This document shows, in pieces, positions 1,985 through 31,541 of a stretch of DNA of 33,802 bases. Under the pieces are notes generated by a model. It was not told the origin of the DNA, did no database searches, and was given only the letters and a program-made list of their open reading frames with translations. This stretch comes from a bacterium BMS3Bbin09. GTDB taxonomy: Bacteria; Nitrospirota; Thermodesulfovibrionia; UBA6902. The stretch's first letter is position 1, and every line of letters begins with the position of its first letter. A program made the translations under genes and the position numbers. Where the stretch lies: assembly GCA_002897915.1 (NCBI GenBank), contig BDTS01000111.1, positions 1 through 33,802 of the forward strand, in the 5' to 3' direction.

Positions 1985-3402
1985 AATCCATCCGCCGATA
2001 CCTCACATGGAGACTTGTTCTCTTCGTTCTCTTTCTGATCGTTTTCGGCAACACTTTGCTGTATATCTTTGTTTACCACAGGATTGTTTTGCATTTTGAT
2101 ATGGCCCTTAAAGACAAGGCCGATGCCTTCGCACAAATGATAGAGCAGAATCATGAAGGGATTGCATTGGAGATGAGAAAGGAATTCATGCCTGAGTATG
2201 ACCGTGAATCTCATGCGGAATATTACCAGATTTGGAGCGAAGACGGAGAAGTGATCAGCCGGTCGCCTTCGCTGAAAGGAAGGGACTTGCCGCAAAGGGC
2301 AGGAACTTTTGAATCACCTGCCTTCTGGAATCTGGATTTACCTGATGGACGTCCGGGGAGAGCGATCGGCGTCAGCTTTTTCCCATTCATAGATAATCAA
2401 GATCTGCCTTTGGTTAAAAACCGTCGGAATGTGCATATTGTTCTGGCGCGTGACAGTATCGAGATATCCAACATGTTGCGTGTGTTATTGCTTGGTACAG
2501 GTGCGCTAATAGTTATAACCTTAACCGGCATTATTATAATAGTGCCCCGTGTTGTAATGGCCGGACTTTCTCCATTAAAGCGTCTGGCCGATTATACAGC
2601 GACTATTGATTCACTATCTCTCGGTTCCCGTTACAATACCGAACATCTGCCTGATGAACTGCGGTCGATTACTGGACGGTTAAATGAGCTTTTGAAACGC
2701 ATTGAGCGCGCTTTTACACATGAAAAGCGCCTTACTGCTGACATGGCTCATGAACTGAAAACACCAATTGCAGAACTCCGTTCTCTGGCAGAGGTTGCAC
2801 TTAAGTGGCCTGACGATACTGAATTTACAAATAATGCCCTGAAGGAGGCCTGTGCAATATCAAACCAGATGGATAATACGGTATCAATGCTTCTCGCACT
2901 GGGACGCTGCGAATCAGGCAAACAGAATATATCTCCAGTCCCTTTTGACCTTAAACGCATGATCCTCCAACTTCTGGAACCGTGGCACAAAGTGGCTGAC
3001 GCCAAGGACATCCGTATTAAATGTGATCTGCCTGATACTGCCGAAGTTATAACCGATGAGGTAATGCTGATATCGATCCTGACAAATTTATTTAGTAATG
3101 CAGTTGAATATTGTCCTGAGGGCGGTCATGTTGAATGCTCCCTGAAAGCCCATTCCGAAAACATGTCATTGTCAATAATAAACAGTAATGCATCACTCAC
3201 TGAAGAAGACCTCCCTCATATGTTTGAGCACCTATGGAGAAAGGATTCTGCCCGCAGCGGAAGTTCCCATAGCGGTCTGGGATTAAGCCTTGTTGATGGC
3301 TTTGCCCGCATTCTTGGCATTGCTGTCAAGGCCGAACTTTTGCAATCTGGAGATTTTTGTGTAACACTGCTTGTCCCATTTGTCCTGCCTGAGATGAAGT
3401 AA
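1981..3402 (+). CDS. Sensor histidine kinase, partner of the first response regulator
   Basis: This 473-residue inner-membrane kinase has TM1 at about 11-33, a periplasmic sensor region of about 130 residues, TM2 at about 166-190, a HAMP linker, and a HisKA domain with phospho-acceptor H257 in MAHELKTP. The HATPase_c domain shows an N box (NLFSNAVEY, about 369-377) and a G2 box SGLGLSL. The G1 position reads NSNASL instead of the usual DxGxG; I recall similar degeneracy in a subgroup of QseC-like kinases, so it is not necessarily inactivating. It overlaps the regulator gene by 4 nt. A decayed copy of its last codons lies downstream of the second kinase at about 11945-11992. The signal sensed is unknown; the nearby PAP2, PepSY and membrane proteins suggest envelope or metal stress. 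Confidence 0.92.
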   Translation: MKSIRRYLTWRLVLFVLFLIVFGNTLLYIFVYHRIVLHFDMALKDKADAFAQMIEQNHEGIALEMRKEFMPEYDRESHAEYYQIWSEDGEVISRSPSLKGRDLPQRAGTFESPAFWNLDLPDGRPGRAIGVSFFPFIDNQDLPLVKNRRNVHIVLARDSIEISNMLRVLLLGTGALIVITLTGIIIIVPRVVMAGLSPLKRLADYTATIDSLSLGSRYNTEHLPDELRSITGRLNELLKRIERAFTHEKRLTADMAHELKTPIAELRSLAEVALKWPDDTEFTNNALKEACAISNQMDNTVSMLLALGRCESGKQNISPVPFDLKRMILQLLEPWHKVADAKDIRIKCDLPDTAEVITDEVMLISILTNLFSNAVEYCPEGGHVECSLKAHSENMSLSIINSNASLTEEDLPHMFEHLWRKDSARSGSSHSGLGLSLVDGFARILGIAVKAELLQSGDFCVTLLVPFVLPEMK

Positions 3403-3423
3403 GAATCCCTGTTATTGCGTTCA

Positions 3424-5816: not shown

Positions 5817-6482
5817 ATGAGGGCGCTTGAGGCATTTGATATTTACCGGTTTTACCATGTAGAGGAAGAGGAAACACTTGCATTGCGGGGGGTGAGTATG
5901 TACGTTGAGTCAGGTGAAATTGTGGCAGTGCAGGGACCCTCGGGAAGCGGCAAATCAACCCTTCTGGCCTGCCTTTCAGGAATTGACGAGCCAGACGGAG
6001 GATATGTAACGCTTATGGGAAAGCGTATTACACGTCAACCGGAAGCAGCGCGTGCAGCAGCTCGTGCAAAGAGCATGGGCATAATGCTTCAGTCCGGCAA
6101 TCTTTTTGATCATCTAAATGTTGAAGATAATATCCACCTTCAGATGCACCTTGCGGGCAGGATTGATATGAAGCGGGCAGATGAGCTGATCAAGCTGGTT
6201 GGGCTGCAGCATCGGCGCTACGCACGGCCGGCGCATATTTCAGGAGGAGAGACCGCACGTGCAGGGCTTGCTGTTGCCCTGGCTGCAGAACCGGGAGTAC
6301 TGCTTGCGGATGAACCGACCGGCGAAGTTGATGCGGAAACCGAACAACAGATATTAAGCCTTCTGAGCACTTACCGGGAAAACGGCGGCGCCGTCCTTGC
6401 TGTTACACACAGCAATGCGGTCGCGGCATGTGCGGACCGGACACTACACCTGTTTGACGGGAGAATTGTGGATGATGTATGA
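5817..6482 (+). CDS. ABC transporter ATPase 1 (LolD/MacB-type)
   Basis: This 221-residue cytoplasmic ATPase has Walker A GPSGSGKST (about 38-46), a Q loop at MLQSGNLFDHL, a signature ISGGETARAGLAVAL (SGGE in place of the common SGGQ), Walker B VLLADEPTGEVD and a switch His in AVTHSN. These are features of the LolD/MacB/FtsE group that serves FtsX-type permeases. The start at 5817 follows GGAGGTGAT; an upstream in-frame ATG at 5769 would overlap the lipoprotein gene. Its end overlaps the second ATPase gene. The two ATPases are clearly different paralogues and probably form a heterodimer with the single large permease. Confidence 0.92.
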   Translation: MRALEAFDIYRFYHVEEEETLALRGVSMYVESGEIVAVQGPSGSGKSTLLACLSGIDEPDGGYVTLMGKRITRQPEAARAAARAKSMGIMLQSGNLFDHLNVEDNIHLQMHLAGRIDMKRADELIKLVGLQHRRYARPAHISGGETARAGLAVALAAEPGVLLADEPTGEVDAETEQQILSLLSTYRENGGAVLAVTHSNAVAACADRTLHLFDGRIVDDV

Positions 6483-11908: not shown

Positions 11909-11944
11909 GAGGCCAATGAATATAAACAGCAACACACCGGATAT

Positions 11945-12018
11945 TATTATGTTACACTGCTTATCCCCTCTGTCCTGCCTGAGATGAAATAAGAATGACT
12001 GCTGATATGTCATCTTCC
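11945..12018 (+). pseudogene. Remnant of a duplicated kinase C terminus plus downstream sequence
   Basis: In frame from 11948 the sequence reads YVTLLIPSVLPEMK and a TAA at 11990-11992, matching the last residues of the kinase at 1981-3402 (CVTLLVPFVLPEMK). DNA similarity continues past the stop (AAGAAT, then TCATCTTCC at about 12010-12018), corresponding to the first part of the PepSY promoter. No upstream kinase sequence remains beyond a few codons. It is therefore a breakpoint scar of a second copy of the kinase-PepSY unit. Confidence 0.75.
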
Positions 12019-19284: not shown

Positions 19285-19339
19285 CCCCCTGGGTGCCGGG
19301 TGCTTGAGGGGAAATATTAACCTGCATTCGTACCTTTCT

Positions 19340-19401
19340 ACCATAGGCATAAGTTTCGTACGAATATATGAAATTGCTAATTTCATCTATTCAACTCAGC
19401 T
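19340..19401 (+). repeat. Dispersed palindromic repeat, copy A
   Basis: This 62-bp unit starts ACCATAGGCATAAGTTTCGT and ends ATTCAACTCAGCT. Its second half is a hairpin with 13 of 14 paired bases (19362-19375 with 19379-19392, loop GCT). An inverted second copy lies at 31268-31330 and agrees at roughly 85 percent of positions. It ends 42 nt before the predicted mgtE start. It looks like a small non-coding mobile or REP-type element. Confidence 0.8.
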
Positions 19402-19442
19402 TTATCTGGATTCTCTTGCCCGATTTTGTTATGATTCCTTCC

Positions 19443-20792
19443 ATGGAACTGATGGAACAAAAAGAGCTGATCGAGAAGCAGCTGGAGGAAAAAGACTACC
19501 CGGCACTTAAGGAGAGTCTCCAGGCGCATCCGGCGGAGATCGCGGAACTTATGAACCAGCTTGACCCGGAAGACCGGACGCTTATTTTCCGTCTCTTGAG
19601 CAAGGACATTGCTGTTGAGGTCTTTGAGCACATTGACAGCAATGTGCAGTCGGAGATACTGAGCGGTTTTCATGACGCGAAACTTATCGGGATCGTCGAT
19701 GCCATGAGTCCTGATGACAGGGCGCGCCTTATCGATGAACTCCCGGCGCTGGTGGTCAAGAAGCTGCGTATGACGATGACGCCCCAGGAGTGGAACGCTA
19801 CATCAACTCTGCTCGGATACGCTGAGGACACGGCGGGCAGGATGATGACGCCAGAATTTGTGGATCTTAAGGACCACATGACCGTAAGGGAAGCGCTCAA
19901 ACGCATCAGGCGCATAGGCAAGGACAGTGAAACGATCTATTATCTTTATGTGACGGATGTAACGCGCCACCTGCTCGGAGCTGTATCATTGAGAAGGATA
20001 GTGCTTTCCGAATCTGATATGATGATCAGGGACATAATGGACTCCGAGGTGATCAAGGTATCCACTGATGACGACCAGGAAGCCGTTGCCGGGGTTGTCA
20101 AGGACTATGACTTTCTGGCGGTTCCGGTAGTGGACAAGGAGAGCCGTCTTGTCGGTATAATAACGGTCGATGACATAATCGATGTTATGGAAGAAGAGGC
20201 GACCGAAGACATCCTGAAGAGCAGCGGTGTGGCTGTGGCTGAAAAGGGATATTTCGAATCTTCTCTCTTGAACAATTTCAGTAAGAGGATAGGCTGGCTG
20301 GTGCTTCTTCTTATAATGAATACATTATCGGGGACCATTATCCTTGCCAATAAAGAATTGCTTGCGACGATAGTTGCGCTGTCCGCTTTCATGCCGATCC
20401 TCATCGGGACGGGCGGTAATACGGGTTCGCAGTCAGCCACGGTCGTTATACGTGGACTCGCGGTCGGAGAGATAGAGGTAAAAAATGCTATGCGCATTCT
20501 TTTCAGGGAGATTTTACTGGGAGTAATGATCGGGCTGCTCCTGGGCGCAGGGGCCACGTTATGGGCATACTGGCTCCAGGGTGACTGGATGGTGTCTATT
20601 ATTGTGGGTTTGAGCTTTGTCTTTGTAATGACTGTATCGACAACCCTCGGGACATTTCTTCCCTTTGTTGTGAAAAGGATCGGGTTCGACCCCGCCCTTA
20701 TCGCAACCCCTTTGATCACAACCACCATTGATGTCACCTCTTTACTTATTTACTTCAAGATAGCTGCTCTGCTAATTGGTGTCAATCTCTGA
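19443..20792 (+). CDS. mgtE: MgtE Mg2+ transporter
   Basis: MgtE is a homodimeric inner-membrane Mg2+ channel gated by cytoplasmic Mg2+. The 449-residue product from 19443 has the usual length: the acidic superhelical N domain (about 10-125), two CBS domains (about 130-255, including MTPEFVDL and VPVVDKESRLVGIITVDDI), the plug helix, and five membrane segments (about 290-445) with the conserved LIGTGGNTGSQSATVVIRG and PFVVKRIGFDPA motifs. Upstream in-frame ATGs at 19368 and 19431 exist; 19368 lies inside a dispersed repeat and is unlikely. No Shine-Dalgarno sequence is visible. TATGAT at 19430-19435 would place the transcription start at the ATG, but its -35 is weak. It may be the only intact Mg2+ transporter here, given the broken corA. 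Confidence 0.93.
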   Translation: MELMEQKELIEKQLEEKDYPALKESLQAHPAEIAELMNQLDPEDRTLIFRLLSKDIAVEVFEHIDSNVQSEILSGFHDAKLIGIVDAMSPDDRARLIDELPALVVKKLRMTMTPQEWNATSTLLGYAEDTAGRMMTPEFVDLKDHMTVREALKRIRRIGKDSETIYYLYVTDVTRHLLGAVSLRRIVLSESDMMIRDIMDSEVIKVSTDDDQEAVAGVVKDYDFLAVPVVDKESRLVGIITVDDIIDVMEEEATEDILKSSGVAVAEKGYFESSLLNNFSKRIGWLVLLLIMNTLSGTIILANKELLATIVALSAFMPILIGTGGNTGSQSATVVIRGLAVGEIEVKNAMRILFREILLGVMIGLLLGAGATLWAYWLQGDWMVSIIVGLSFVFVMTVSTTLGTFLPFVVKRIGFDPALIATPLITTTIDVTSLLIYFKIAALLIGVNL

Positions 20793-20831
20793 GCGAAAGG
20801 GCACCCACAGGGGGAGTGTCCGTACTAGTGT

Positions 20832-20868
20832 CCCCCGTAGTTTTCTTTCGAAAACTAAGACACGGGGG
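20832..20868. other. Two-part hairpin between convergent mgtE and RND pump genes
   Basis: CCCCCGT (20832-20838) pairs with ACGGGGG (20862-20868), and inside it AGTTTT (20839-20844) pairs with AAAACT (20851-20856) around CTTTCG; five unpaired bases bulge on the 3' side. It sits between the stops of two converging genes, a usual place for bidirectional termination, but no T-tract follows. Confidence 0.5.
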
Positions 20869-20881
20869 CTGTGGCGTAATA

Positions 20882-23800
20882 TTAAATTTCTTCGATGCCT
20901 TGCCTTTTGCGCTTGAACAGTTCCAGCAGGTCCTCAAGTATTAAATAAAGTGAAGGCACAAGTAATAATGTGATCAATGTTGCGAAAAGTATCCCGAACC
21001 CGAGGCTGATCGCCATAGGGATGAGGAACTGGGCCTGCATGCTCTTTTCGATTATGATCGGTGTCAGTCCCAGAGATGTTGTCAGTGAGGTAAGTATGAT
21101 CGGGCGGAACCTCCGCTGCGCTGCCTGTATAACAGCTTCATGTAATTTAGTGCCGGACTTTCTTAGTTCGTTTGTAAAGTTTACGAGCAGCAGGGAATCG
21201 TTCACCACCACGCCGGTAAGCGCCACAAGGCCGAACATGCTCAGGATGCTCAGGTTAAATCCGAGCATGAGATGTCCGAGTATCGCGCCTACGAACCCGA
21301 AGGGGATGGCGGACATGATAATGAAGGGCTGCAGATAACTCCTGAACGGGATCGCGAGGAGACAGTAAATAAGGAACTGCGCCATTAAAAACCCTTTGAG
21401 CAGGCTCCCGAGTGAGTCCCTGCGTTCCTTCTCCTGTCCTTCAAGGTCGTAAGAAAGGCCAGGATGATCTGACTGCAGGGCCTTGAGCACTGTTTTGCTC
21501 ATGTCCGCGAGTATGTCCTCGGCATTTGCTATTTTGCTGTCTACACTCGCTGTAACATTGATGACCCTTTTTCTGTCTGCCCTGTTAATTTCGCTGAAGC
21601 CCCTTCCTTTTTCAACGGACGCGGCCTGACTGAATGGCACTTCGATGCCGCCGGGGGTGCGTATGCGCATGGATTCGAGATCGCTAAGGCTCATTCTCTC
21701 GTCTTCCGGATAACGCACCATTACTTTTATCTCGTTGCGGCCTCTCTGGAGCCTGAGGGCCTCGCTGCCGTAGAATGCCGATCGTATCTGCCTGCCGAGT
21801 TCAGCTTCGGTGATACCGAGTGTGCGGGCCTCGGACTTCAGTCTGAGTTTCAGTTCGCGTTTGCCTTTTGTATGGTTGTCGTCAATATCGCTTACACCCG
21901 GATAATCGGCAAGGGCTGTTTTTATCCTGTCAACTGAATCTGAGAGGACTTCGAAGTCTTCATGCGCGATCCGTATATCAATGTCATTGCCGAAATGCAC
22001 AAGGGATGATGCAAAAGTAACGGAGTCCGCGCCCGGAATAGAGCCGACGGCCTCGCGCCATTTACGCGCAATATCAGCGGAAGGCACATCCCGCTTCTCG
22101 GCCTTTGTCAGAAGCATCGCAACGCTCGAACTGTTTGTGGCCGTTGACCTGCTGTCGCCTGTGGCGCTTGAATGCATTGACCCTCCGACAACTGAAAAAA
22201 TATGGCGGAGAATACTGTTTCCTTCGGGTCTCTCTTTATCGAAATTCAGAACGATCTCCTCTGCCTTTTTGACAACAAGATCGTGCGCCTTTGCGGTTTC
22301 TTCCACCGGCGTGCCTATTGGCATTTTAATTGTCGCGGTTATTATATTGGCATCGACCTCGGGCATGAAGTGAAATCTGATTATTCCTCCGCCCACAAGC
22401 CCTATTGTTATCAGCAATATTGCTAAAGCGGCCGCGAGCGTGGTGTACCTGTGTCTGGTGCAGATCGTCAGGAGATTTTTGTAAGGTCCGTTAATAAATC
22501 TTTCGAGCCGTTTACTAAAACCCTCCCTGACTCTAGTGATAAATAGAGCAGGGCCCCACGAGGGGCGCGATTCTTTTCCCAGGGCCAGGTGCGCTGGAAG
22601 GATCAGCAAAGATTCAACAAGAGAAATTAAGAGTATCGGGATGACCACTAACGGGATGACTTTGATGAACTTGCCCATTGTGCCGCTTACGAAGATGAGA
22701 GGCAGGAACGCTGCAACTGTTGTCAATACAGAGAATATTACCGGGTTCCCGACCTCGATAGTGCCGTCTATTGCCGCGTTCATATATGATTTTTTCATGC
22801 GTCTGTGCGTGAATACGTTTTCTCCGACAATGATCGCGTCATCAACTACGATACCGAGCGCGAGGATGAATGCGAACAAAGAGATCATATTTATTGATAC
22901 ATCGAACCCGGGCATCAGCAGCAGGGCGCCGAGGAAAGATATCGGAATGCCGAGCATCACCCACATGGCCAGTCTTATCTGCAGGAAGAGCCCCAGGATG
23001 ATGAATATCAGTATCAGGCCGAAGAACGCGTTTCTGAGCAGAAGGTCCATTCTGCTGCGGTATACGTCTGAGTAGTCGTTCCATATGGCCAGTTTTATTG
23101 AATCCGGCAGGCCAGGTCTTTTTTGCTCAACGTAATTTTTGACGATGGCTGATATATCGAGCGGCTTCTGGTCACCTACACGGTATATTGCCACCATGGC
23201 CGATGGGAGGCCGTTTAAACGGGAATACTGGTCCGTCTCCATGAATCCGTCCCGGACGTCCGCGATATCGCCGAGCCTGAGCTCGGTCCCGTCACTTTTT
23301 TCCAGAATTGTGATGGCCGCGTACTCCGGCCCTGTATAGCGTTTTTCTTTTGTCCGTATGAGGATCTCGCCGCCTTTTGCTTTTACAGCGCCTCCGGGGA
23401 GGTCGATCGAGGCCTGTCTTATCCTCCCGGCGATCTGTTCGAGTGTGAGGTTGTATTTTCGCAATGTATCTTCCCTTACATCGATGGATATCTCATAGGG
23501 CCTTACACCGGTGATATCGGCCTGGGTGATCCCGGGCATTGCGAGGAGTTCGTCCCTTATGGATTCCGCGTTTTCACGAAGGCTCCTTTCGGGGGCGTCG
23601 CCGTATACCACGATCGAGACGACCTCGCGCCTGCGCGCTATTTTGGTGACGATCGGTTTTTCCGCGTCTTCAGGGAAGGTGGTTATGCGGTCGACCTCGG
23701 CCTTGATGTCCTGCAGGATCAGATCGATATTCTCGCCATCCAGTATCTCCGCAGAGACAGTTCCGGACCCTTCACCGGCCACGGATGTAATCTCTTTTAT

Positions 23801-24031
23801 CCCGGTAAGACTGCTGAGGCTTTCTTCTATTTTAAGGACTATTCCGTCTTCAACTTCCTCGGGTCCAGCGCCCGGATAGGCCACCGTGACCTGTACTATC
23901 TCAAGCTCGATCTCCGGGAAGACCTCCTGTTTTATGGAATAGGTCATTACCAGCCCGCCGATGATGAATATCAGCATCAGCAGGTTTGCGGCAACGTGGT
24001 TGTTCGCCATCCATTTTATCTGGCGGTTCAT
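20882..24031 (-). CDS. RND-family efflux pump, inner-membrane transporter
   Basis: This 1049-residue proton-driven exporter has the full AcrB-type duplication: TM1 (about 12-32), a large periplasmic loop, six membrane helices (about 335-480), a further helix (about 520-545), a second large loop and the terminal helices (about 860-1035). The helix motif LGIVVDDAIIVGENV carries the paired Asp residues used in proton relay, and NLLMLIFIIGG and VFPEIE are typical of the N terminus. It belongs with the HAE1/AcrB or NolG-like drug and lipophile pumps rather than the CzcA metal group, though this is inferred. The TAA of the adaptor gene is followed directly by its ATG. It is the last gene of a four-gene operon. 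Confidence 0.93.
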   Translation of the reverse strand: MNRQIKWMANNHVAANLLMLIFIIGGLVMTYSIKQEVFPEIELEIVQVTVAYPGAGPEEVEDGIVLKIEESLSSLTGIKEITSVAGEGSGTVSAEILDGENIDLILQDIKAEVDRITTFPEDAEKPIVTKIARRREVVSIVVYGDAPERSLRENAESIRDELLAMPGITQADITGVRPYEISIDVREDTLRKYNLTLEQIAGRIRQASIDLPGGAVKAKGGEILIRTKEKRYTGPEYAAITILEKSDGTELRLGDIADVRDGFMETDQYSRLNGLPSAMVAIYRVGDQKPLDISAIVKNYVEQKRPGLPDSIKLAIWNDYSDVYRSRMDLLLRNAFFGLILIFIILGLFLQIRLAMWVMLGIPISFLGALLLMPGFDVSINMISLFAFILALGIVVDDAIIVGENVFTHRRMKKSYMNAAIDGTIEVGNPVIFSVLTTVAAFLPLIFVSGTMGKFIKVIPLVVIPILLISLVESLLILPAHLALGKESRPSWGPALFITRVREGFSKRLERFINGPYKNLLTICTRHRYTTLAAALAILLITIGLVGGGIIRFHFMPEVDANIITATIKMPIGTPVEETAKAHDLVVKKAEEIVLNFDKERPEGNSILRHIFSVVGGSMHSSATGDSRSTATNSSSVAMLLTKAEKRDVPSADIARKWREAVGSIPGADSVTFASSLVHFGNDIDIRIAHEDFEVLSDSVDRIKTALADYPGVSDIDDNHTKGKRELKLRLKSEARTLGITEAELGRQIRSAFYGSEALRLQRGRNEIKVMVRYPEDERMSLSDLESMRIRTPGGIEVPFSQAASVEKGRGFSEINRADRKRVINVTASVDSKIANAEDILADMSKTVLKALQSDHPGLSYDLEGQEKERRDSLGSLLKGFLMAQFLIYCLLAIPFRSYLQPFIIMSAIPFGFVGAILGHLMLGFNLSILSMFGLVALTGVVVNDSLLLVNFTNELRKSGTKLHEAVIQAAQRRFRPIILTSLTTSLGLTPIIIEKSMQAQFLIPMAISLGFGILFATLITLLLVPSLYLILEDLLELFKRKRQGIEEI

Positions 24032-25186
24032 TTATTTTATGGTCCTTAATTTCATTCCGTTGGCGGCTCCCGACAGATTGGTCAGGACGATAATGTCACC
24101 GTTAACAATGCCCTTATTTATAATTACTCTCTCTCTTTCAAATCTGAGCGGAACGACATCTGCTATTTTTAATTTATTCTTTTTATCCATGATCCAGACA
24201 GTTGAATTGTCCCTCAATGCTGTCCTCGGTATAACGAATACATTTTTCAGATTTCTGCCTTTGATCAAGACTTCAACAAATGAACCTGCAGCGAGGGAGG
24301 GGCCGTTTTTCCTTTTTTTCTTCAGTCCGTAAGGGTCATTTATCTCGACTATGACCTGCATCATACGGCTTTTTTCATCTATCTCTCCTGTTGAACGTAC
24401 GACATGGCCGGCCCATTCATATACGGTTCCGCTGATATTAAGGCGTACCACTGCATCGTTGTTATGACTCTCCATATTCAGCCAGCGAAGCTGTTCGGCA
24501 GTAAGGGATACGGCAACCTCAGCAGTATCTGTTCCCGCAAGTACAGCAACACTGTTTCCGGACCTGACATACTGGCCGACTTCGACGTTCTCGGAACGTA
24601 TCCTTACGCTAAAGGGCGCCTTTATTTCGGTCCGGGCAAGATTGAGCTTTGCCTGGTCCACCTTTGCGGAGGCTGACGCAAGTGCCGCCTTCGCGTTTTT
24701 TAACTGGGGTCCATAAAGCACAAGCGGGTTCGGGGGTGTCTCGTTTTCCTTATTGATCACGTTCCATTCGTTACGTGCGATCTCAGCCTGGCTCTCTATC
24801 TTTGCGAGTTCGTACTCGGCGTTCGCCTTCGAAGATCCTACCTGTTCAAGGGCGAGTTTGTAATCGGTATCTTCTATTCTGAACAATACAGTTCCTTTTT
24901 CAAAAAAGCCCCCTGCATCCAGACCGGGTGCCGTGTAGATCACCTCTCCGCTCACCTGCGGGATGACCGATATTTCTTGAGTTGATCTGACTGTTCCTGT
25001 GCCTTTTACGGTCATGGCTGCTATTTCTTTTTCAGCCTTCATGAACTCCACCAGTATCCCCGGGTCCTCTTTGGCCTCCTTGACTGCGACAGGATGTAAA
25101 GATGTAAGGGCCTTCATGATTAATAACCCGATAACGATCAAAGCGATCGGGATACCTATCTTTATCAACTTTGTTTTAGTGCTCAT
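24032..25186 (-). CDS. RND efflux periplasmic adaptor (membrane fusion protein)
   Basis: The 384-residue adaptor has an N-terminal membrane anchor (about 9-28). It continues with a lipoyl-type half (VIPQVSGEVIY), a coiled-coil hairpin (about 110-185, rich in Ala, Lys and Glu), the second lipoyl half (LARTEIKAPFSVRI), a beta-barrel domain (about 215-300) and a membrane-proximal domain (about 305-384). It links the inner-membrane pump to the outer-membrane factor. The ATG at 25186 follows GGGAG by 5 nt and lies inside the end of the outer-membrane factor gene (11-nt overlap). Its stop abuts the pump start with no gap, so expression is coupled. Confidence 0.92.
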   Translation of the reverse strand: MSTKTKLIKIGIPIALIVIGLLIMKALTSLHPVAVKEAKEDPGILVEFMKAEKEIAAMTVKGTGTVRSTQEISVIPQVSGEVIYTAPGLDAGGFFEKGTVLFRIEDTDYKLALEQVGSSKANAEYELAKIESQAEIARNEWNVINKENETPPNPLVLYGPQLKNAKAALASASAKVDQAKLNLARTEIKAPFSVRIRSENVEVGQYVRSGNSVAVLAGTDTAEVAVSLTAEQLRWLNMESHNNDAVVRLNISGTVYEWAGHVVRSTGEIDEKSRMMQVIVEINDPYGLKKKRKNGPSLAAGSFVEVLIKGRNLKNVFVIPRTALRDNSTVWIMDKKNKLKIADVVPLRFERERVIINKGIVNGDIIVLTNLSGAANGMKLRTIK

Positions 25187-26591
25187 ATGTACTCCCTTTT
25201 TTGTCAGTTAAATATTCTTTCATAATTTCATCTGTCCATTCGCCGCCGAGTGCTCTCGCCAGTTCGATACGGTCCGAAATAAGCTGGCGTTTTGCGGCCA
25301 GCAGGCGGCTCTTAGCGGTAAAATTGTGCAGCTGTCCGGTCAGTACCGGAAGGTAATCGGTCAGCCCCTGTATATAACGGTCAAGCGCGATACGGAGGGA
25401 GTTTTCGGATGCAGCCATATTTTCTTTAAGCATACTGATCCGTTTCTCCGAGGACCTGTTTTTTATAAGGGAGTCTTCAACCTCCTTGAACGCGTTCAGC
25501 ACTGTTTTGTGGTACGCTGCCAGTTTTTCTCTGAATACGGCCCTTGTCCTCTCCACTTCGGCGCTTCGTCTCCCTGAATCTATGACAGGCTGTACGGCCT
25601 GTAGCAGTATGTTCCATAATATGTTCGGAGAGTCCAGGATGTTCCTGACCTTGGTGCTTGCGCCCCCGTATGTTCCCACAAGATTGAAAGATGGGAACCT
25701 GTTCGCAATAGCCGCTCCGATCCTTTCATCCGCTGCATTGAGTCGCAGCCATGCCGACCTGATGTCCGGCCTTTTGGTCAATAGTTCCGAAGGGATTCCG
25801 GCTGGGAATTCAGGCGTGTCTATTAACTCGTTCGCGTTCCCGCCTATTTCATTGTCCGGAAACCGTCCTGTCAGAACTGAAAGCGCGTTAAGCGTGGTCG
25901 CGAGGTTCTGCTCGAATACTGGTAGCTGTGCCCTGGCAGAAGAAAGGTTCTGCCTTGACTGATAAAGGTCTATCGCGGGCACGAGTCCGTGTCTGTAGCG
26001 GCTCTCGACCTTCTTGAGAGTATCCCGGTAAGATTTGATGGTATTGTCGGAGAGTTCGATCTGAGCTCGATGTTCTATCGCAAGGAAATATAGATCGGCA
26101 ACTTGGGCTGAGATGCTTATATATAGCGATCTAAGGTCCTCTTCGGAAGCCAGTGCGTCCAGCCGTGCGGCCCTGGTTCTTGATCCTAATTTATTCCAGA
26201 GGTCTATCTCGAAGCTCGTTGCCGCCGAAAGGGTGTATGTCTCTGCTGTAACACCGGACTTTCTTGCCCTTCCGCCTGAGCCTTCGATATTCAGGACAGG
26301 ACCCCTTGCGGAATTTGTTGTTCGGACAATTGCGAGTGACTGCTGAAGGCGTTCATATGCCTGTGCAATATCGAGATTGTTTTGTAAGGCTTCTTCCATT
26401 AATGCGTTCAACTTTTCATCTCCTAGCCACTCCCACCACCTGCCGACCGGAGGCGAGGATACTGGTTTTTCCGATGAATAAGAATCAGGGAGATCAACCT
26501 CCTGTCCTTTGATCAAGGGTGAATGAACGGAACAGCCCGAAAAAATCAACAACACGATCAATATAGAAGCTCTCTTTAATAATATTTTCAT
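25176..26591 (-). CDS. Outer-membrane efflux lipoprotein (NodT/OprM family)
   Basis: The 471-residue protein begins with a lipoprotein signal peptide ending LIFSGC (C20). It then shows the OprM/NodT sequence: WWEWLGDEKLNALMEEALQNNLDI, a first OEP repeat (about 45-235) and a second one (about 250-450), with SFEIDLWNKLGSRTRAA and KRPDIRSAWLRLNAADERIGAA as family marks. It forms the trimeric outer-membrane channel of the tripartite pump. The start at 26591 is chosen because the lipobox requires it and GAAGG sits 4 nt upstream; it overlaps the tetR stop as ATGA. Longer in-frame extensions upstream would bury the signal peptide. Confidence 0.92.
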   Translation of the reverse strand: MKILLKRASILIVLLIFSGCSVHSPLIKGQEVDLPDSYSSEKPVSSPPVGRWWEWLGDEKLNALMEEALQNNLDIAQAYERLQQSLAIVRTTNSARGPVLNIEGSGGRARKSGVTAETYTLSAATSFEIDLWNKLGSRTRAARLDALASEEDLRSLYISISAQVADLYFLAIEHRAQIELSDNTIKSYRDTLKKVESRYRHGLVPAIDLYQSRQNLSSARAQLPVFEQNLATTLNALSVLTGRFPDNEIGGNANELIDTPEFPAGIPSELLTKRPDIRSAWLRLNAADERIGAAIANRFPSFNLVGTYGGASTKVRNILDSPNILWNILLQAVQPVIDSGRRSAEVERTRAVFREKLAAYHKTVLNAFKEVEDSLIKNRSSEKRISMLKENMAASENSLRIALDRYIQGLTDYLPVLTGQLHNFTAKSRLLAAKRQLISDRIELARALGGEWTDEIMKEYLTDKKGSTYEH

Positions 26592-27238
26592 TTTGCCTTC
26601 ATGCCTGCGGTTACGAACGGTATTATCTGATTGATCAGTGATTTTGAATCGGTCTCGATTTTCATCCCTATTGATTCCGGTTTGATATTCCCGCATACAT
26701 GTATTGTGTGTAGAAGGGAGCCAATTGCAAAATGGAGCCTCAAAAAAATGAGTTCACGCGGATGCTGAGGTAATGCTTCGCAGGTTATTTCGAAGAATAG
26801 CTGGAATAAGGGTTTAATGAATTTCAGGAAGACCTGCCGTACAGTGTTATCAGGGTCGGTAAATGAGCGTCCTATTAAGCTTAAGAAGTTCTTTGCACCA
26901 GGGCTTGAATCCTTGAACTGCAGAGTAGGCTCTATAAAGGCACACAGTACATCCCTGACGTCCGGCGCGCATCCTTTATTTTTTGCAATATCCCTGACCT
27001 CTTTTAGCTTTTCGCTGCGTATCCGGTTAAGCGGTATGATTCTTCTTTTGATCACCTCTTCGAGCAGTGACTTTTTTGATCCGAAATGGTAATTGATTGC
27101 CGCAAGATTTACGTCTGCCTTGTCTGTAATGGCCCTCATCGTGGTCCCGCGAAAACCCCTTGCCGCAAAGAGGTTCTCGGCTGCGTCGAGTATCTTCTCT
27201 TTTGTATTGGATCTTGTTTTATTGTTTTTAGCGTTCAT
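26588..27238 (-). CDS. TetR/AcrR-family repressor of the RND operon
   Basis: The 216-residue regulator has the TetR_N helix-turn-helix (about 10-57: KEKILDAAENLFAARGF, then TMRAITDKADVNLAAINYHFGSKK). An all-helical ligand domain follows (about 75-210), with a C-terminal part like those of AefR/CmeR-type regulators. It is the first gene of the efflux operon and overlaps the next gene by 4 nt, which predicts autoregulation of the whole operon with release by a pump substrate. The start ATG at 27238 has no ribosome binding site and lies 8 nt after a strong -10, so the mRNA is probably leaderless. Candidate operators are in the promoter spacer. Confidence 0.92.
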   Translation of the reverse strand: MNAKNNKTRSNTKEKILDAAENLFAARGFRGTTMRAITDKADVNLAAINYHFGSKKSLLEEVIKRRIIPLNRIRSEKLKEVRDIAKNKGCAPDVRDVLCAFIEPTLQFKDSSPGAKNFLSLIGRSFTDPDNTVRQVFLKFIKPLFQLFFEITCEALPQHPRELIFLRLHFAIGSLLHTIHVCGNIKPESIGMKIETDSKSLINQIIPFVTAGMKAK

Positions 27239-27245
27239 ACATATG

Positions 27246-27274
27246 ATTAAAACACATGTTTGAAACGATGTCAA
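27246..27274 (-). promoter_or_regulatory. Promoter of the tetR-RND operon with operator-like palindrome in the spacer
   Basis: On the minus strand TTGACA (27269-27274) and TTTAAT (27246-27251) are 17 bp apart. The palindrome AAACA-N2-TGTTT (27250-27261) overlaps the -10 and spacer, a usual place for TetR autorepression. A second, wider TGAAAC...GTTTCA pair spans 27261-27293. The transcription start is predicted at about the first base of the ATG at 27238. Confidence 0.7.
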
Positions 27275-27328
27275 GGTTTAACTTCCTGTTTCATAGTTAA
27301 GCGCATGCATGCGGCTGTTGCTTTTCTC

Positions 27329-27357
27329 TTGATAATAGGCAATTACTTGATTATCAT
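27329..27357 (+). promoter_or_regulatory. Candidate promoter of mqnA
   Basis: TTGATA (27329-27334) and TATCAT (27352-27357) are 17 bp apart, each one mismatch from consensus. The mqnA leader would be about 135 nt. A 20-codon frame (27408-27470, MAIWREMEDK...) lies in that leader without a ribosome binding site; I do not call it a gene. Confidence 0.55.
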
Positions 27358-27499
27358 ATGTGAAAATTCAGAAAAAAATATTCGGGCTATAAGCCGTGCT
27401 GAAAGACATGGCCATCTGGAGAGAAATGGAAGATAAAGATATAATTATAAAGACCGAGGATCCGCGTTAATTATTTAGTGTTTTCAAACAGGTGATATA

Positions 27500-28315
27500 T
27501 TGAAGAATAACAAACTTAAAATAGGGCGCATCCCTTACGCGAATCTGTTCCCTATTTTTTACTATCTTGATAAAAAGTGTGATAATTCCGATTATAGATT
27601 TATTAAGGGCGTTCCTTCAAAAGTGAACAGAATGCTTAGGGAGGGGGAGATAGATGTAAGCCCTTCCTCGTCTATCGAGTATCTGAGGAACAAGGACAAG
27701 TATCTTGTCCTTCCCTGGTTCTCGATCAGTTCTTCAGGGCCCATAAAAAGCATACTACTCTTTTCGAAATGCCCGATCGATGAACTCGGGGGAAAGACTA
27801 TCGCTATCTCTTCTGAATCCGAGACCTCCATAATGCTCCTGAAGATCATTCTCAAGGAATTTTTTTCTCTTGACTGCAGGTTCGAACAGGAAAGCAGGCG
27901 CAGTGTCAGAAACATCCTCACATCCTTTCCCGCAATGCTTCATATCGGGGACACTGCAATGATCGAAGCGCATAAACTTTCTCTGAATGAGCGCCTGCAG
28001 TCATCGATGTATGTTTATGATCTCGGGGAACTCTGGGATAAATATACAGGACTTCCGTTCGTGTTCGCCCTCTGGGTTGTGAGGAAACAGGCCGCTGAGG
28101 AGAAGGGTGACCTTATCAGAAAACTTTCGGATGATCTGATAAAGGCCGGGAAGTTCGCAAGTAGAAAATTTAAGATGATCGCATGGGAAGCCCCGCTTAA
28201 TAAATCCCTCAGTGAAAAGGAACTGGTCGAATACTGGAAGTTGATATCGTACGACTTTTCGGAAAAACAGTTGGAAGGACTGAACCTCTTCGAGAAATAC
28301 GCTAAAAGGTTATAG
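27500..28315 (+). CDS. mqnA: Chorismate dehydratase MqnA (futalosine pathway)
   Basis: MqnA converts chorismate to 3-enolpyruvylbenzoate, the first step of futalosine-dependent menaquinone synthesis. The 271-residue protein shows the family pattern: KIGRIPYANLFPIFYYL at the N terminus, EIDVSPSSSIEYLRN, LLFSKCPIDELGGKTIAISSES, HIGDTAMIEA and the diagnostic DLGELWDKYTGLPFVFALW. This is a periplasmic-binding-protein-like fold used as an enzyme. The start is TTG at 27500, preceded by AGGTGATATA. It ends 12 bp from a convergent small gene. Other pathway genes (mqnB, C, D) are not in the window, but its presence indicates a menaquinone-based respiratory chain. Confidence 0.93.
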   Translation: MKNNKLKIGRIPYANLFPIFYYLDKKCDNSDYRFIKGVPSKVNRMLREGEIDVSPSSSIEYLRNKDKYLVLPWFSISSSGPIKSILLFSKCPIDELGGKTIAISSESETSIMLLKIILKEFFSLDCRFEQESRRSVRNILTSFPAMLHIGDTAMIEAHKLSLNERLQSSMYVYDLGELWDKYTGLPFVFALWVVRKQAAEEKGDLIRKLSDDLIKAGKFASRKFKMIAWEAPLNKSLSEKELVEYWKLISYDFSEKQLEGLNLFEKYAKRL

Positions 28316-28327
28316 CCTCTCCTGACT

Positions 28328-28663
28328 CTAATCAAAATCAGGAAATATCCTGACCTCAAGGAGTTTGCCGCTCTCCAGTGTCTGCACAGCCGTAAGTATG
28401 CCGCCTTCGACATATTTCAGCTTGAACTTCCCGAAACCCTCTCTTACCATGCGCATGGCATCCGAGGGACATCCCCCTTCGCAGCCCGCTACTCCCCTGA
28501 TCATTCTCGGGATGAGATTCTCTATATTAAGAGGCGTGAGGTCGACCCCGAGCTTATTGCCGAAGTCATGTATGTCATTTGTTACCTGAGGGACGTCAAC
28601 CCTGTAGGCATTTTCAACTTCAATATGAAGAGACTCCTTGTCTATCTTTACATCAATATCCAT
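28328..28663 (-). CDS. Small conserved-looking protein with CEGGC motif
   Basis: The 111-residue protein is not recognised. It is soluble, has no signal peptide, and carries two Cys in VAGCEGGCPSDAMRMV (about 71-86), an arrangement reminiscent of metal- or Fe-S-ligating turns but with only two cysteines. The start at 28663 follows GGGAG by 5 nt; the frame runs further upstream without a better start. The C terminus reads LLEVRIFPDFD. It is convergent with mqnA. The clear ribosome binding site and regular composition make it a likely real gene of unknown function, perhaps a regulator or electron-transfer accessory; that is a guess. Confidence 0.75.
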   Translation of the reverse strand: MDIDVKIDKESLHIEVENAYRVDVPQVTNDIHDFGNKLGVDLTPLNIENLIPRMIRGVAGCEGGCPSDAMRMVREGFGKFKLKYVEGGILTAVQTLESGKLLEVRIFPDFD

Positions 28664-28868
28664 TTGGACTCCCGTATCGTGAAATTTCAGGATATATAAA
28701 GCCGAATTAAGCGGTGCGTAGCATCCGCTCCAATGAGACTTATGCCAAGGGTATAATAACAGATTTAAAAAATGCATATCACTAATGCTGATATGGTCAT
28801 TTTGGTCTAAAGAAATAATTGCAGAGTACCGAATGTATTATTATGCAGCAAAAGGAGATAAACTCAGT

Positions 28869-29045
28869 ATGAGCGTTAAAATAGTTATACCGGTATATTT
28901 TATGTGTATTATTCCTATGGTGATTATAGGCGTAAGCTGTCTCCATTTGAAAAGGGGTCTGCAGGCGGCAATATCAAAATGTTCCACGATTAATATTCGT
29001 TGCACTCGAAACACGGCAGAGATGGTAAAGCAGCAGACCTCTTAA
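28869..29045 (+). CDS. Possible small membrane protein
   Basis: A 58-residue frame with one strongly hydrophobic segment (VKIVIPVYFMCIIPMVIIGVSCL, about residues 3-25) followed by a polar basic tail. AAGGAG lies 12 nt before the ATG, a long but usable spacing. An in-frame extension to 28785 lacks a ribosome binding site. There is no recognisable family. The membrane segment supports it weakly. Confidence 0.35.
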   Translation: MSVKIVIPVYFMCIIPMVIIGVSCLHLKRGLQAAISKCSTINIRCTRNTAEMVKQQTS

Positions 29046-29069
29046 TATTAATATAATCAAACAATCCAA

Positions 29070-29684
29070 CTACTTAAGACCCTTATCTTTAAGACATTCC
29101 TGAAGCTTTGCAAGTGCCCGTCCGCGGTGGCTCATAGAATGTTTCTCGTCATCCGTCATCTCGGCGAATGTCCTATTATGTTCTTCTGGAAAAAATAGAG
29201 GGTCGTATCCGAAGCCGTTCTCGCCCCTGTTCTCCCTGCCAATCTTCCCCTCAACATGGCCCGTAAAAGTCATTATTTTATCACCGGTGGCAAGCGCAAT
29301 ACAACAGACAAATCGCGCCGTCCTCTTTTCATCAGGAACATCTTTTATCTCATCCAATAGCTTCCTGTTATTTGCCATATCATCCGAGGTCTCGCCCGCA
29401 TATCTTGCGGAATAGACACCTGGCGCTCCGTCAAGAGCGTCCACCTCGATGCCCGAATCGTCCGCGATAGCTGTCAAGCCGGAACACTTTGACACATATA
29501 CTGCTTTCTTGATCGCATTGAATTCAAAGGTCTCTCCGTCCTCTTCGACCTCTTCGCATTGCGGGAAGTCATCCGGGGTGAGGATGTTGACTGTTGTCTC
29601 CTCCTGCGAGACTATGCCTTCCTCGATTATCTTCTTCAGCTCCCTGATCTTCTTTTTATTTCTTGATGCGAGGATTATGTCCAT
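29070..29684 (-). CDS. rdgB: RdgB/HAM1 non-canonical purine NTP pyrophosphatase
   Basis: This cytoplasmic house-cleaning enzyme hydrolyses dITP, XTP and related nucleotides to monophosphates plus pyrophosphate. The 204-residue sequence has the family motifs: ASRNKKKIREL (SxNxxK loop), TAIADDSGIEVDALDGAPGVYSARYAG, and the C-terminal GENGFGYDPLFF followed by SHRGRAL. The length is standard. The ATG at 29684 lies 8 nt after GGAAGGT, within the last codons of pdxA (10-nt overlap), so it is the last gene of the ridA-pdxA-rdgB operon. Confidence 0.96.
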   Translation of the reverse strand: MDIILASRNKKKIRELKKIIEEGIVSQEETTVNILTPDDFPQCEEVEEDGETFEFNAIKKAVYVSKCSGLTAIADDSGIEVDALDGAPGVYSARYAGETSDDMANNRKLLDEIKDVPDEKRTARFVCCIALATGDKIMTFTGHVEGKIGRENRGENGFGYDPLFFPEEHNRTFAEMTDDEKHSMSHRGRALAKLQECLKDKGLK

Positions 29685-30664
29685 GATCGTTTACCTTCCA
29701 TTTTTAATGCCTGTTTTATTGCCTCGATCATGCTTGAGGGATTGGCTTTGTTCTTCCATGCGATATCGAACGCGGTCCCGTGGTCAGGCGAGGTCCTGAT
29801 TATAGGCAGTCCGACCGTGACGTTTACCCCTGTTTCAAAGGCCAGCATCTTAAATGGTATGAGCCCCTGGTCGTGGTACATGCATACGATCATATCGACT
29901 TCTTTGTTCAGCGCCTTATGAAAGACCACATCCGGAGGGTAGGGTCCAGATGCATTGATGCCATCCTTGCGGGCCTTATTTATAGCTGGAATTATTGCAG
30001 TTATTTCTTCTGTCCCCATAATGCCGGATTCACCAGCATGCGGATTGAGCCCAGCGACTGCGATCCGCGGCTCATTTATGCCGAGCATCCCGGCACCTAT
30101 CTTTGCGAGCCTGATCGTCCTGAGGACGAGCTTCTCATTGATCTTCTTCGGGACGTCCTTCAGCGATATATGAATAGTGCTCAGGATTATTCTCAGTTTA
30201 TTACTGGCGAACATCATCGCGAAATCGCTTGTGTTCGTAAGGTCCGCCAGCATCTCGGTGTGCCCCGGCCATTTGGCTCCCGCCATTTTAAGGGACTCCT
30301 TGGATATAGGAGCTGTCACGATAGCAGAGACCTCATTGTTCAGCGCAAGCTCCACGGCCTTTTCTATATATTTGATGATCGCGCTACCCGCGCTTTTGGA
30401 AGACACGCATTTTTTTACTGGAAGGCGTGACCTGATATCGAATACGTCTATATGACCCGGCTTGGGCTTCAAGTCTGAAATATTGGAAATCGTCCGTATC
30501 CTGATAGGGAGTTCTGTCATCTTCACTGCCTCACGCATAACATCCGCGTTCCCGATCACTACTGGAGCAAACCGGCTTCGTACTTTGCCGCTATGAAGCG
30601 CCTTGATTATGATCTCCGGCCCGACACCACCGGGCTCACCCATTGTTATCGCTATTTTTTTCAT
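29675..30664 (-). CDS. pdxA: 4-hydroxythreonine-4-phosphate dehydrogenase PdxA
   Basis: PdxA oxidises 4-phosphohydroxy-L-threonine in the DXP-dependent pyridoxal phosphate pathway. The 329-residue protein starts MKKIAITMGEPGGVGPEI and contains TAPISKE, the metal-binding His regions (WPGHTEML, LNPHAGESG, MYHDQG) and VGLPIIRTSPDHGTAFD, all diagnostic. No deviation at a key residue is visible. There is no good ribosome binding site directly before the ATG, so translation probably couples to ridA, whose stop is 10 nt upstream. The operon pairs a PLP biosynthetic enzyme with RidA, which detoxifies enamines made by PLP enzymes, a sensible combination. Confidence 0.96.
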   Translation of the reverse strand: MKKIAITMGEPGGVGPEIIIKALHSGKVRSRFAPVVIGNADVMREAVKMTELPIRIRTISNISDLKPKPGHIDVFDIRSRLPVKKCVSSKSAGSAIIKYIEKAVELALNNEVSAIVTAPISKESLKMAGAKWPGHTEMLADLTNTSDFAMMFASNKLRIILSTIHISLKDVPKKINEKLVLRTIRLAKIGAGMLGINEPRIAVAGLNPHAGESGIMGTEEITAIIPAINKARKDGINASGPYPPDVVFHKALNKEVDMIVCMYHDQGLIPFKMLAFETGVNVTVGLPIIRTSPDHGTAFDIAWKNKANPSSMIEAIKQALKMEGKRSWT

Positions 30665-30674
30665 ATAAAGGAGT

Positions 30675-31118
30675 TTATTCGGAGTTCTCTTCTATATTCT
30701 TTCGGGGATGTCTTGTTCTTCCCGGTTTTTTGTATGGCAGGGCAACGATCGCGTCGATCTCTATCTGCACGTCAAGGGGAAGCTTGGCTGCCTGAATAGT
30801 TGTCCTTGCAGGGGGGAACTGCGTGAAGTGTTTTTCATAAGCCTCATTGAACCGCTGGAAGTCTTCAATGTCGGCAAGATAACATGTGATCTTCAGGACA
30901 TCGTCCATTGTTGATCCTGCGTCTTCTACGATGAGCTTTAAATTGTTAAGAGTTATATCGGTCTCTTCCTCGATGCTGGCGCGCACTGGTATTCCTGTTG
31001 CCGGATTGACCGGGATCTGTCCCGATACGTATAAAAGCCCCCTGTGTGTCACTGCCTGGGAATACGGTCCCTTTGCCTGCGGGGCGCTCTGTGAACGGAA
31101 AATCCTCTTATTTGCCAT
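30675..31118 (-). CDS. ridA: RidA (YjgF/UK114) enamine/imine deaminase
   Basis: RidA hydrolyses reactive 2-aminoacrylate and similar enamines released by PLP-dependent dehydratases. The core (about 1-128) has SAPQAKGPYSQA, GLLYVSGQIPVNPATG, the PPARTTIQAAKLPLD block with the catalytic Arg, and VEIDAIV-type ending (IEIDAIVALP). It carries an extra basic, then acidic C-terminal tail of about 19 residues (KKPGRTRHPRKNIEENSE region) not usual in RidA. The start is an ATG with GAGGAG about 9 nt upstream. It is the first gene of the operon with pdxA and rdgB. Confidence 0.95.
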   Translation of the reverse strand: MANKRIFRSQSAPQAKGPYSQAVTHRGLLYVSGQIPVNPATGIPVRASIEEETDITLNNLKLIVEDAGSTMDDVLKITCYLADIEDFQRFNEAYEKHFTQFPPARTTIQAAKLPLDVQIEIDAIVALPYKKPGRTRHPRKNIEENSE

Positions 31119-31213
31119 GGGTTGGAACTCCTCGTCTTCTTTTTAGTTAGTTTACAACATATGAAAACACATTTAATGTTCAAAGTGCAAAGGTATAAAC
31201 TGCTATCTGCCTC

Positions 31214-31243
31214 TTGACATTAGTTATGATATCGGTGTTTAAT
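31214..31243 (+). promoter_or_regulatory. Candidate promoter for the desulforedoxin-rubrerythrin operon
   Basis: TTGACA (31214-31219) and TTTAAT (31238-31243) are 18 bp apart. The transcript would contain the palindromic repeat copy B in a leader of about 170 nt before the first gene. I saw no clear PerR or Fur box. The 300 bases between ridA and the desulforedoxin gene hold otherwise only that repeat. Confidence 0.5.
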
Positions 31244-31267
31244 TTATTTTATACCCAGAGGGCATGT

Positions 31268-31330
31268 AGCTGAGTTGAATAGATGATGATTTTTAATTTC
31301 ATCTATTCTTACGAAACTTATGCCTGTGGT
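31268..31330 (-). repeat. Dispersed palindromic repeat, copy B (inverted)
   Basis: The reverse complement starts ACCACAGGCATAAGTTTCGT and ends ATTCAACTCAGCT, matching copy A at 19340-19401 over its whole length with one 1-nt gap. A perfect 10-bp stem (31277-31286 with 31299-31308) forms here too. It sits in the leader of the desulforedoxin gene. Confidence 0.8.
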
Positions 31331-31418
31331 ATAAGTCTCATTGAAGCGGGTGCTATGTACCGCTTAATTCGTCTTTAGACTCACAGCTTGTTAACCATAA
31401 TTAAAGGGGAGGTATGAA

Positions 31419-31541
31419 ATGGGAGTTAAAGCAGCAGGCGAGAATTATAAATGTAATATCTGCGGTAATGAAGTCACTGTGACAAAGGCAGGCGGCGGTG
31501 TACTTGTATGCTGTGGTGAGGAGATGGAAAAAACATCCTGA
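31419..31541 (+). CDS. Desulforedoxin-like protein (40 residues)
   Basis: This very small protein has CNIC near the N terminus and a VCC pair 16 residues later, the C-x2-C plus CC arrangement of desulforedoxin and of the N-terminal domain of desulfoferrodoxin, which bind one Fe in a FeS4 centre. The start at 31419 is preferred over the ATG at 31414 because only this frame codes for the motif; GGGGAGG lies 6 nt upstream. The stop is 13 nt before the rubrerythrin start, so both genes form an operon. It likely donates electrons in oxygen or peroxide detoxification. Confidence 0.85.

Follow-up and report, generated by a model that had tools for sequence, protein, structure and literature searches.

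Short palindromic repeats are common in bacteria, and a single enzyme group (Y1/RAYT) has been linked with their spread; a RAYT/Y1 gene in the genome, usually with repeats on its flanks, is one mark of a REP system. Insertion within the IS200/IS605 family, from which short elements of the PATE type derive, is known to make no target duplication. Among the IS630 or IS5 subgroups are DDE-type insertion sequences with a TA or TAW target; ERIC, RUP and Correia are small, intergenic, non-autonomous bacterial MITEs; and integron attC sites have R'/R'' core sites and an integrase nearby. The hairpins of REP and IS200 ends, with their guide and cleavage tetranucleotides, are described in PMC6006769, which, together with PMC3733652, defines REPs by a GT[AG]G or CGTC tag near the hairpin foot.

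The family described here resembles the REP/BIME/REPIN and RAYT systems in being made of short intergenic hairpin repeats, in a copy number of about 100, in having hairpins particular to each species, and in forming clusters and inverted pairs. It is unlike them in having no conserved GTAG/GTGG or CGTC hairpin-foot tag, no RAYT in the host, and ends that are conserved across phyla with the stem exchanged. The CGTC-tagged REPs described in PMC3733652 are likewise palindromic repeats without a dedicated transposase, but our family lacks the CGTC tag and has much longer conserved flanks on either side of the hairpin. With the short IS200/IS605-derived elements it shares a hairpin near each end, asymmetric ends and fixed left target bases, and it differs in its apparent 2-3 bp target duplication and in a host without Y1. 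Like the ERIC, RUP and Correia MITEs, it is small, intergenic and non-autonomous, has a TA-rich target and can supply stop codons at insertion; unlike them, it has no terminal inverted repeats, is only about 60 bp long and has a covarying central hairpin. Its bulged stem with a variable tip recalls integron attC sites.

Repeat elements of the window

The window, meaning the whole stretch of 33,802 nucleotides that was analysed, is contig 111 of the host assembly (1.85 Mb, 115 contigs, stated to be 92% complete). The original prediction described a palindromic repeat in two inverted copies about 12 kb apart, at 19340-19401 and 31268-31330, and this pair is real, with 40 nt that are 90% complementary and ungapped. 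A search of the own genome with positions 31264-31390 as the query returned the copy at 19336-19401 with an 87% match (E=8e-16), and a covariance search of the host genome set the limits at 19336-19404 (minus strand) and 31265-31334 (plus strand), a few bases beyond those first given. The neighbouring genes are also as named: MgtE domains span 19443-20792, and a Desulfoferrod_N (desulforedoxin-like) protein of 40 aa is encoded at 31419-31541. Both copies contain the internal hairpin that had been proposed, and both fold as single-stranded DNA with negative z values on the two strands (-4.3 and -4.1 for the 31 kb copy, -3.3 and -3.1 for the 19 kb copy).

These two copies belong to a type that we call A. 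The element at 19336-19404 reads, on the minus strand, TAA followed by AGCTGAGTT, the central hairpin, TACGAAACTTATGCC and the end GGTAGAA. The element at 31265-31334 shares its right end with an inverted element of a second type, B, at 31318-31377 (minus strand), to which it is fused tail-to-tail, the overlap being a 17-bp palindrome, TTATGCC-TGT-GGTATAA. On its left it is adjoined by a copy of the right-end hairpin, TATACCCAGAGGGCA, at 31250-31264 (plus strand), and this composite of right-end hairpin and A copy has the same layout at 31230-31343 of contig C60 of the host genome (G000). Besides the inverted B copy, the window holds a third element-bearing place beyond the predicted pair, a B-type element at 28697-28756 (plus strand) composed of TAAAGCCGAATT, the hairpin AAGCGG..CCGCTC, CAATGAGACTTATGCC and the end GGTATAA.

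Unrelated to these elements, a direct repeat of 63 nt with 84% identity also occurs in the window, at 3349-3411 and 11939-12001, each copy lying at, or just past, a gene end and showing no strong fold. No third copy of it was found in 571,787 bases of host loci searched (overlaps included).

Copy number, anatomy and genomic sites

Counting copies across the whole genome, as had been proposed, gave more than 110 in the host, so that the alternative of an isolated duplication fails, and the pair at 19.3 and 31.3 kb (about 67 bp, 87% identity) is nothing special among them. Inversion of the 12-kb segment between the two copies, as first suggested, finds no support beyond their location. The 1.85 Mb contain at least 45 A copies and at least 68 B copies. 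Covariance model R1, built from 34 aligned copies of the A type, gave 48 matches in the host genome, one place being a palindrome matched on both strands and one a half copy; model R2, built from 38 B copies, gave 104 matches, A copies among them. The 45 A and 68 B copies, both lower bounds, form the sample of 113 used for the analysis of context, and their summed length of 7060 bp (one nested copy apart) corresponds to about 0.38% of the host genome. Mean pairwise identity is 0.815 for A and 0.857 for B, with only three identical pairs, all of the B type; since the copies are not fresh, the activity of the element may be old.

Elements are about 57-70 bp long. Both types have the ends AGCYGARTT, preceded by TAW (W = A or T), and ARACTTATGCC-n-GGTA, and differ in their central hairpins. 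In A, TAW is followed by AGCTGAGTT, the stem GAATAG(A)TGAAAT..ATTTCATCTATTC, nTACGAAACTTATGCC, 2 to 5 nt and GGTA, and in B by AGCCGAATT, the stem AAGCGG..CCGCTT, CAATGAGACTTATGCC and GGTA. The minimum-energy top-strand fold consists of two hairpins for the elements at 31265-31334 and 28697-28756 and for those of loci L226 and L142, and of a single long bulged hairpin for 19336-19404; the small second hairpin, TTATGCC-n-GGTATAA, stands at the right end in several folds.

Pairing was examined in a joint alignment (A3) of 31 sequences from the host, a Desulfobacterales MAG, a Nitrospira-labelled MAG and one phage-like contig. Of the cells of the central helix (helix 2), 97.2% are paired, and two-sided changes are seen at 5 of its 6 pairs; the alignment holds 44 cells with a two-sided change against 16.3 in shuffles, none of 500 shuffles being as high. 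The number of pairs with a two-sided change and the number of pair types in A3 do not exceed those of shuffles, being reached in 267 and 475 of the 500, respectively. The outer helix is 89.6% paired; it is without covariation support, since two-sided changes are lacking there and two of its pairs are broken in B. Alignments A1, A2 and A3 show no clean terminal inverted repeats; the ends differ and match only internally and with an offset. At 0-2 nt from the hairpin foot, a GT[AG]G or CGTC tag was found in 0 of 111 cases for hairpin 1 and 0 of 110 for hairpin 2 on the top strand, and in 2 of 109 for hairpin 1 on the bottom strand.

By a simple gene caller, according to which six copies have more than 20 bp in common with a predicted gene, 109 of the 113 host copies are intergenic, one lies within a predicted gene and three are at contig ends. 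The intergenic copies are placed between divergent (42), convergent (7) and co-directional (60) gene pairs. Several copies start exactly at the stop codon of the preceding gene, and many A copies lie at most about 26 bp from a start codon. This proximity, together with the covarying hairpin and a right end that is TGGTATAAT-like and resembles by eye an extended -10 box, speaks for a promoter element or a structured RNA that acts in cis on gene regulation and was duplicated by processes of the host. We consider this explanation highly improbable, as orientation relative to the co-directional genes shows no preference for B (18 with, 20 against) and a weak one for A (16 with, 6 against), and thus lends no support to the influence on expression that the original prediction had suggested. 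In addition, the genes adjoining the copies are unrelated to one another, nearly all relatives are without copies, and there is no Rfam match at gathering thresholds (Rfam 15; 0 matches in the window).

Copies also occur in compound arrangements, which include tandems of three B copies in contig C83 and two in C1, head-to-tail A-B arrangements, tail-to-tail A-B arrangements at C111, C60 and C90, and a B copy nested within an A copy at C84. A perfect palindrome of two left halves of the element is found at L159:2052-2103 (C62 of the host), and another, likewise built from two left halves, begins in L095 at about position 6277; both possibly arose by template switching. Half elements that end within the stem are, among the matches listed, about equally common for left halves (L287, L289, L290, L291, L294, L295, L296 and a partial tandem at C46:2132) and right halves (L154-L158 and L161). 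Three of ten left-only candidates (L288, L292 and L293) and two right-only candidates (L153 and L160) look like chance matches. The half copies could reflect hairpin deletion instead of movement. RNA-primed retrotransposition, for which the right-only copies had hinted at 5' truncation, was rejected because left-only copies are equally frequent among the matches listed, which leaves no polarity.

Insertion target and candidate enzymes

Flanks could be compared for 98 of the 113 copies, which were anchored by a search expression that the other 15 did not fit. The left flank, TAW, is conserved, and its third base (W) is linked to the fifth base from TA on the right, with 55 copies in class A/A, 0 in A/T, 19 in T/A and 15 in T/T (Fisher p 4.9e-8, 9 rows of other letters excluded). 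A target duplication of 2-3 bp (AW or TAW) would fit most of these flank data and of the site data given next, including the base link between both ends, and leaves the T/A class unexplained. Plain target duplication does not predict an asymmetric link between the ends (T/A 19, A/T 0); judging from the T/A class and from the TA-n-A that is fixed before W, an A-rich end may be brought by the element as well.

Occupied and unoccupied forms can be compared at a repeated site of the Desulfobacterales MAG, as distinct from orthologous sites in the host. The empty sequence is AAAGTTACAAGTGCC or AAAGTTATAAGTGCC, and the occupied one is AAAGTTATAA, followed by AGC...GGTGC and then AAGTGCC. IS200-type insertion without duplication would fit this repeated site but not the T/T class, and pairing does not explain that class either, because a right-end T cannot pair with the TTAT arm. 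In the carrier genome G752, the sole copy splits a RAYT-like gene (L238:4350-5090; NF047646, E 3e-7, below that model's cut-off) at CATAAAAGAGAA, where the A-run can be accounted for only by an additional A or by a duplication of 3 bp. The interrupted gene is an insertion site rather than the partner of the repeat, and a REP system with a RAYT partner was rejected on this ground.

The short target-linked bases on both sides, the AT-rich intergenic sites and the many copies, nested and tandem, could also come from an ordinary MITE whose parent, a DDE-type insertion sequence targeting TA or TAW, is missing from the host or degraded. We judge this unlikely: when the right end is read inward (TACC-n-GGCATAAGT), its match to the left end, AGCYGARTT, is internal only and not in register, and the pairing of the central hairpin is kept by covariation, which a DDE MITE does not need.

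A more serious candidate, although we lean against it, is an IS200/IS605-type (Y1, HUH) transposase acting on single strands, with a hairpin near each end and insertion 3' of TAW. It names an enzyme and is compatible with the explanation that we prefer below. The two top-strand hairpins in most folds, the asymmetric ends and the conserved TAW of the left flank agree with it, and two features at the foot of the right hairpin, a TTAT immediately on its 5' side and a conserved TA-n-A following it, are reminiscent of the guide and cleavage tetranucleotides set out in PMC6006769. Of 13 carrier genomes searched, 11 have genes with the Y1_Tnp domain (PF01797), but element ends accompany none of the 30 Y1 loci of these other carriers, and neither the host (MAG 92% complete) nor G752 has a match at E <= 1; the search for a REP-associated transposase that the original prediction had suggested thus found no Y1/RAYT gene in the host genome. 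Both ends of the element appear to be target-linked, unlike insertion in the IS200/IS605 family, and the copies show no GC-skew (replication-strand) orientation bias (61 vs 52).

Among the carriers and loci examined, we found no enzyme gene carrying element ends and no full-length insertion sequence with such ends, and viral contigs searched with a portion of the RAYT-like protein gave no relative. Several candidate places for an autonomous parent were rejected: orphan ends within 2-3 kb, copy pairs 3 kb apart in genomes G713 and G735, and the copy-dense regions C31, C23, C39 and C107 all contain, by eye, ordinary housekeeping genes, and no recombinase with matching ends was seen at these places. 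An IS3-like OrfA frame at C31:201-503 (by eye) has no element ends that we could see. The assembly may lack the enzyme gene, the host may have lost it, or phages may supply the enzyme.

Distribution and meaning of the family

Searching a species-level genome collection with the pattern ATTCNTACGAAACTTATGCC gave 14 contig stretches, 13 of them in the Desulfobacterales MAG (PL23a_bin.99) and one in the MAG labelled Nitrospira sp. BS150m-G55, which fits G002, the one other member of the host's family that carries the element, with the same ends and a hairpin of its own. A-type matches occur in 2 of 61 genomes (the host and its relatives, host counted), and the joint model matches 4 of 395 genomes of the phylum (host counted), one of them weakly at 25.8 bits; with so few carriers among relatives, the family has expanded locally. 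In the class of the Desulfobacterales MAG, 9 of 389 genomes have a match (that MAG counted), and these carriers keep the ends and have genome-specific hairpins, such as GAGCCGCTGGTCGGCTC in G735 and the GGGCTATGGAATAGCCC stem in G713.

One element copy each, again with the shared ends and a different hairpin, is found in two viral contigs whose gene content, judged by eye, includes phage head and portal-like genes. Only L142 was genuine among the 19, 9 and 8 stretches of viral-contig candidates, and a further search added L286; phage and plasmid collections gave no match covering 80% of the query. Such phage-like contigs suggest one route between species. Two other repeats were seen alongside the family: at L239:1004-1105 (G230), B-type ends flank a longer insert with CGAAGTGGCAACTTCAGCTACGAAGGCTGG, a stretch resembling another repeat, and a STAR-like repeat built on AAAGTGCCTAAAGTT..GTATCGCTTCGCTCTG is scattered in PL23a_bin.99 (L088-L095, L130 and L198), several of its copies hosting the element. 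Letter-string and keyword searches did not find the family in print.

We conclude that these repeats are, in all likelihood, a family of very short non-autonomous mobile DNA elements of hairpin type that depend for their movement on an enzyme acting in trans. This reading draws on the fixed ends, the exchangeable but paired hairpin, the high copy number, the near-absence in relatives and the intergenic location, as well as on the nested, tandem and tail-to-tail arrangements, the occupied and unoccupied site forms and the target-linked base at both ends. The trans-supplied enzyme would recognise both the hairpin and the ends, the DNA probably being single-stranded and folded at that stage, and would insert a copy at TAW sites with duplication of 2-3 bp (AW or TAW). 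For the host itself, the copies probably serve no particular function.

The family behaves like a REP or MITE family, as first proposed, in its many short, intergenic, palindromic copies, yet defining features of both are lacking, with no conserved GTAG/CGTC tag next to a hairpin, no Y1/RAYT transposase found in this genome and no clean terminal inverted repeats. More tentatively, and with considerable doubt on our side, only some 10-12 bp per end may be fixed across the host's phylum, Desulfobacterota and phage-like contigs, with the hairpin as an identity tag replaced from genome to genome; a recombinase class not yet linked to such repeats might then combine single-strand recognition with a 2-3 bp duplication. 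Ends that stay constant while hairpins are swapped, a base linked to the target on either side, and a copy-rich carrier with no Y1/RAYT point to another route by which short repeats spread, and the phage-borne copies offer a way to follow their transfer between phyla.
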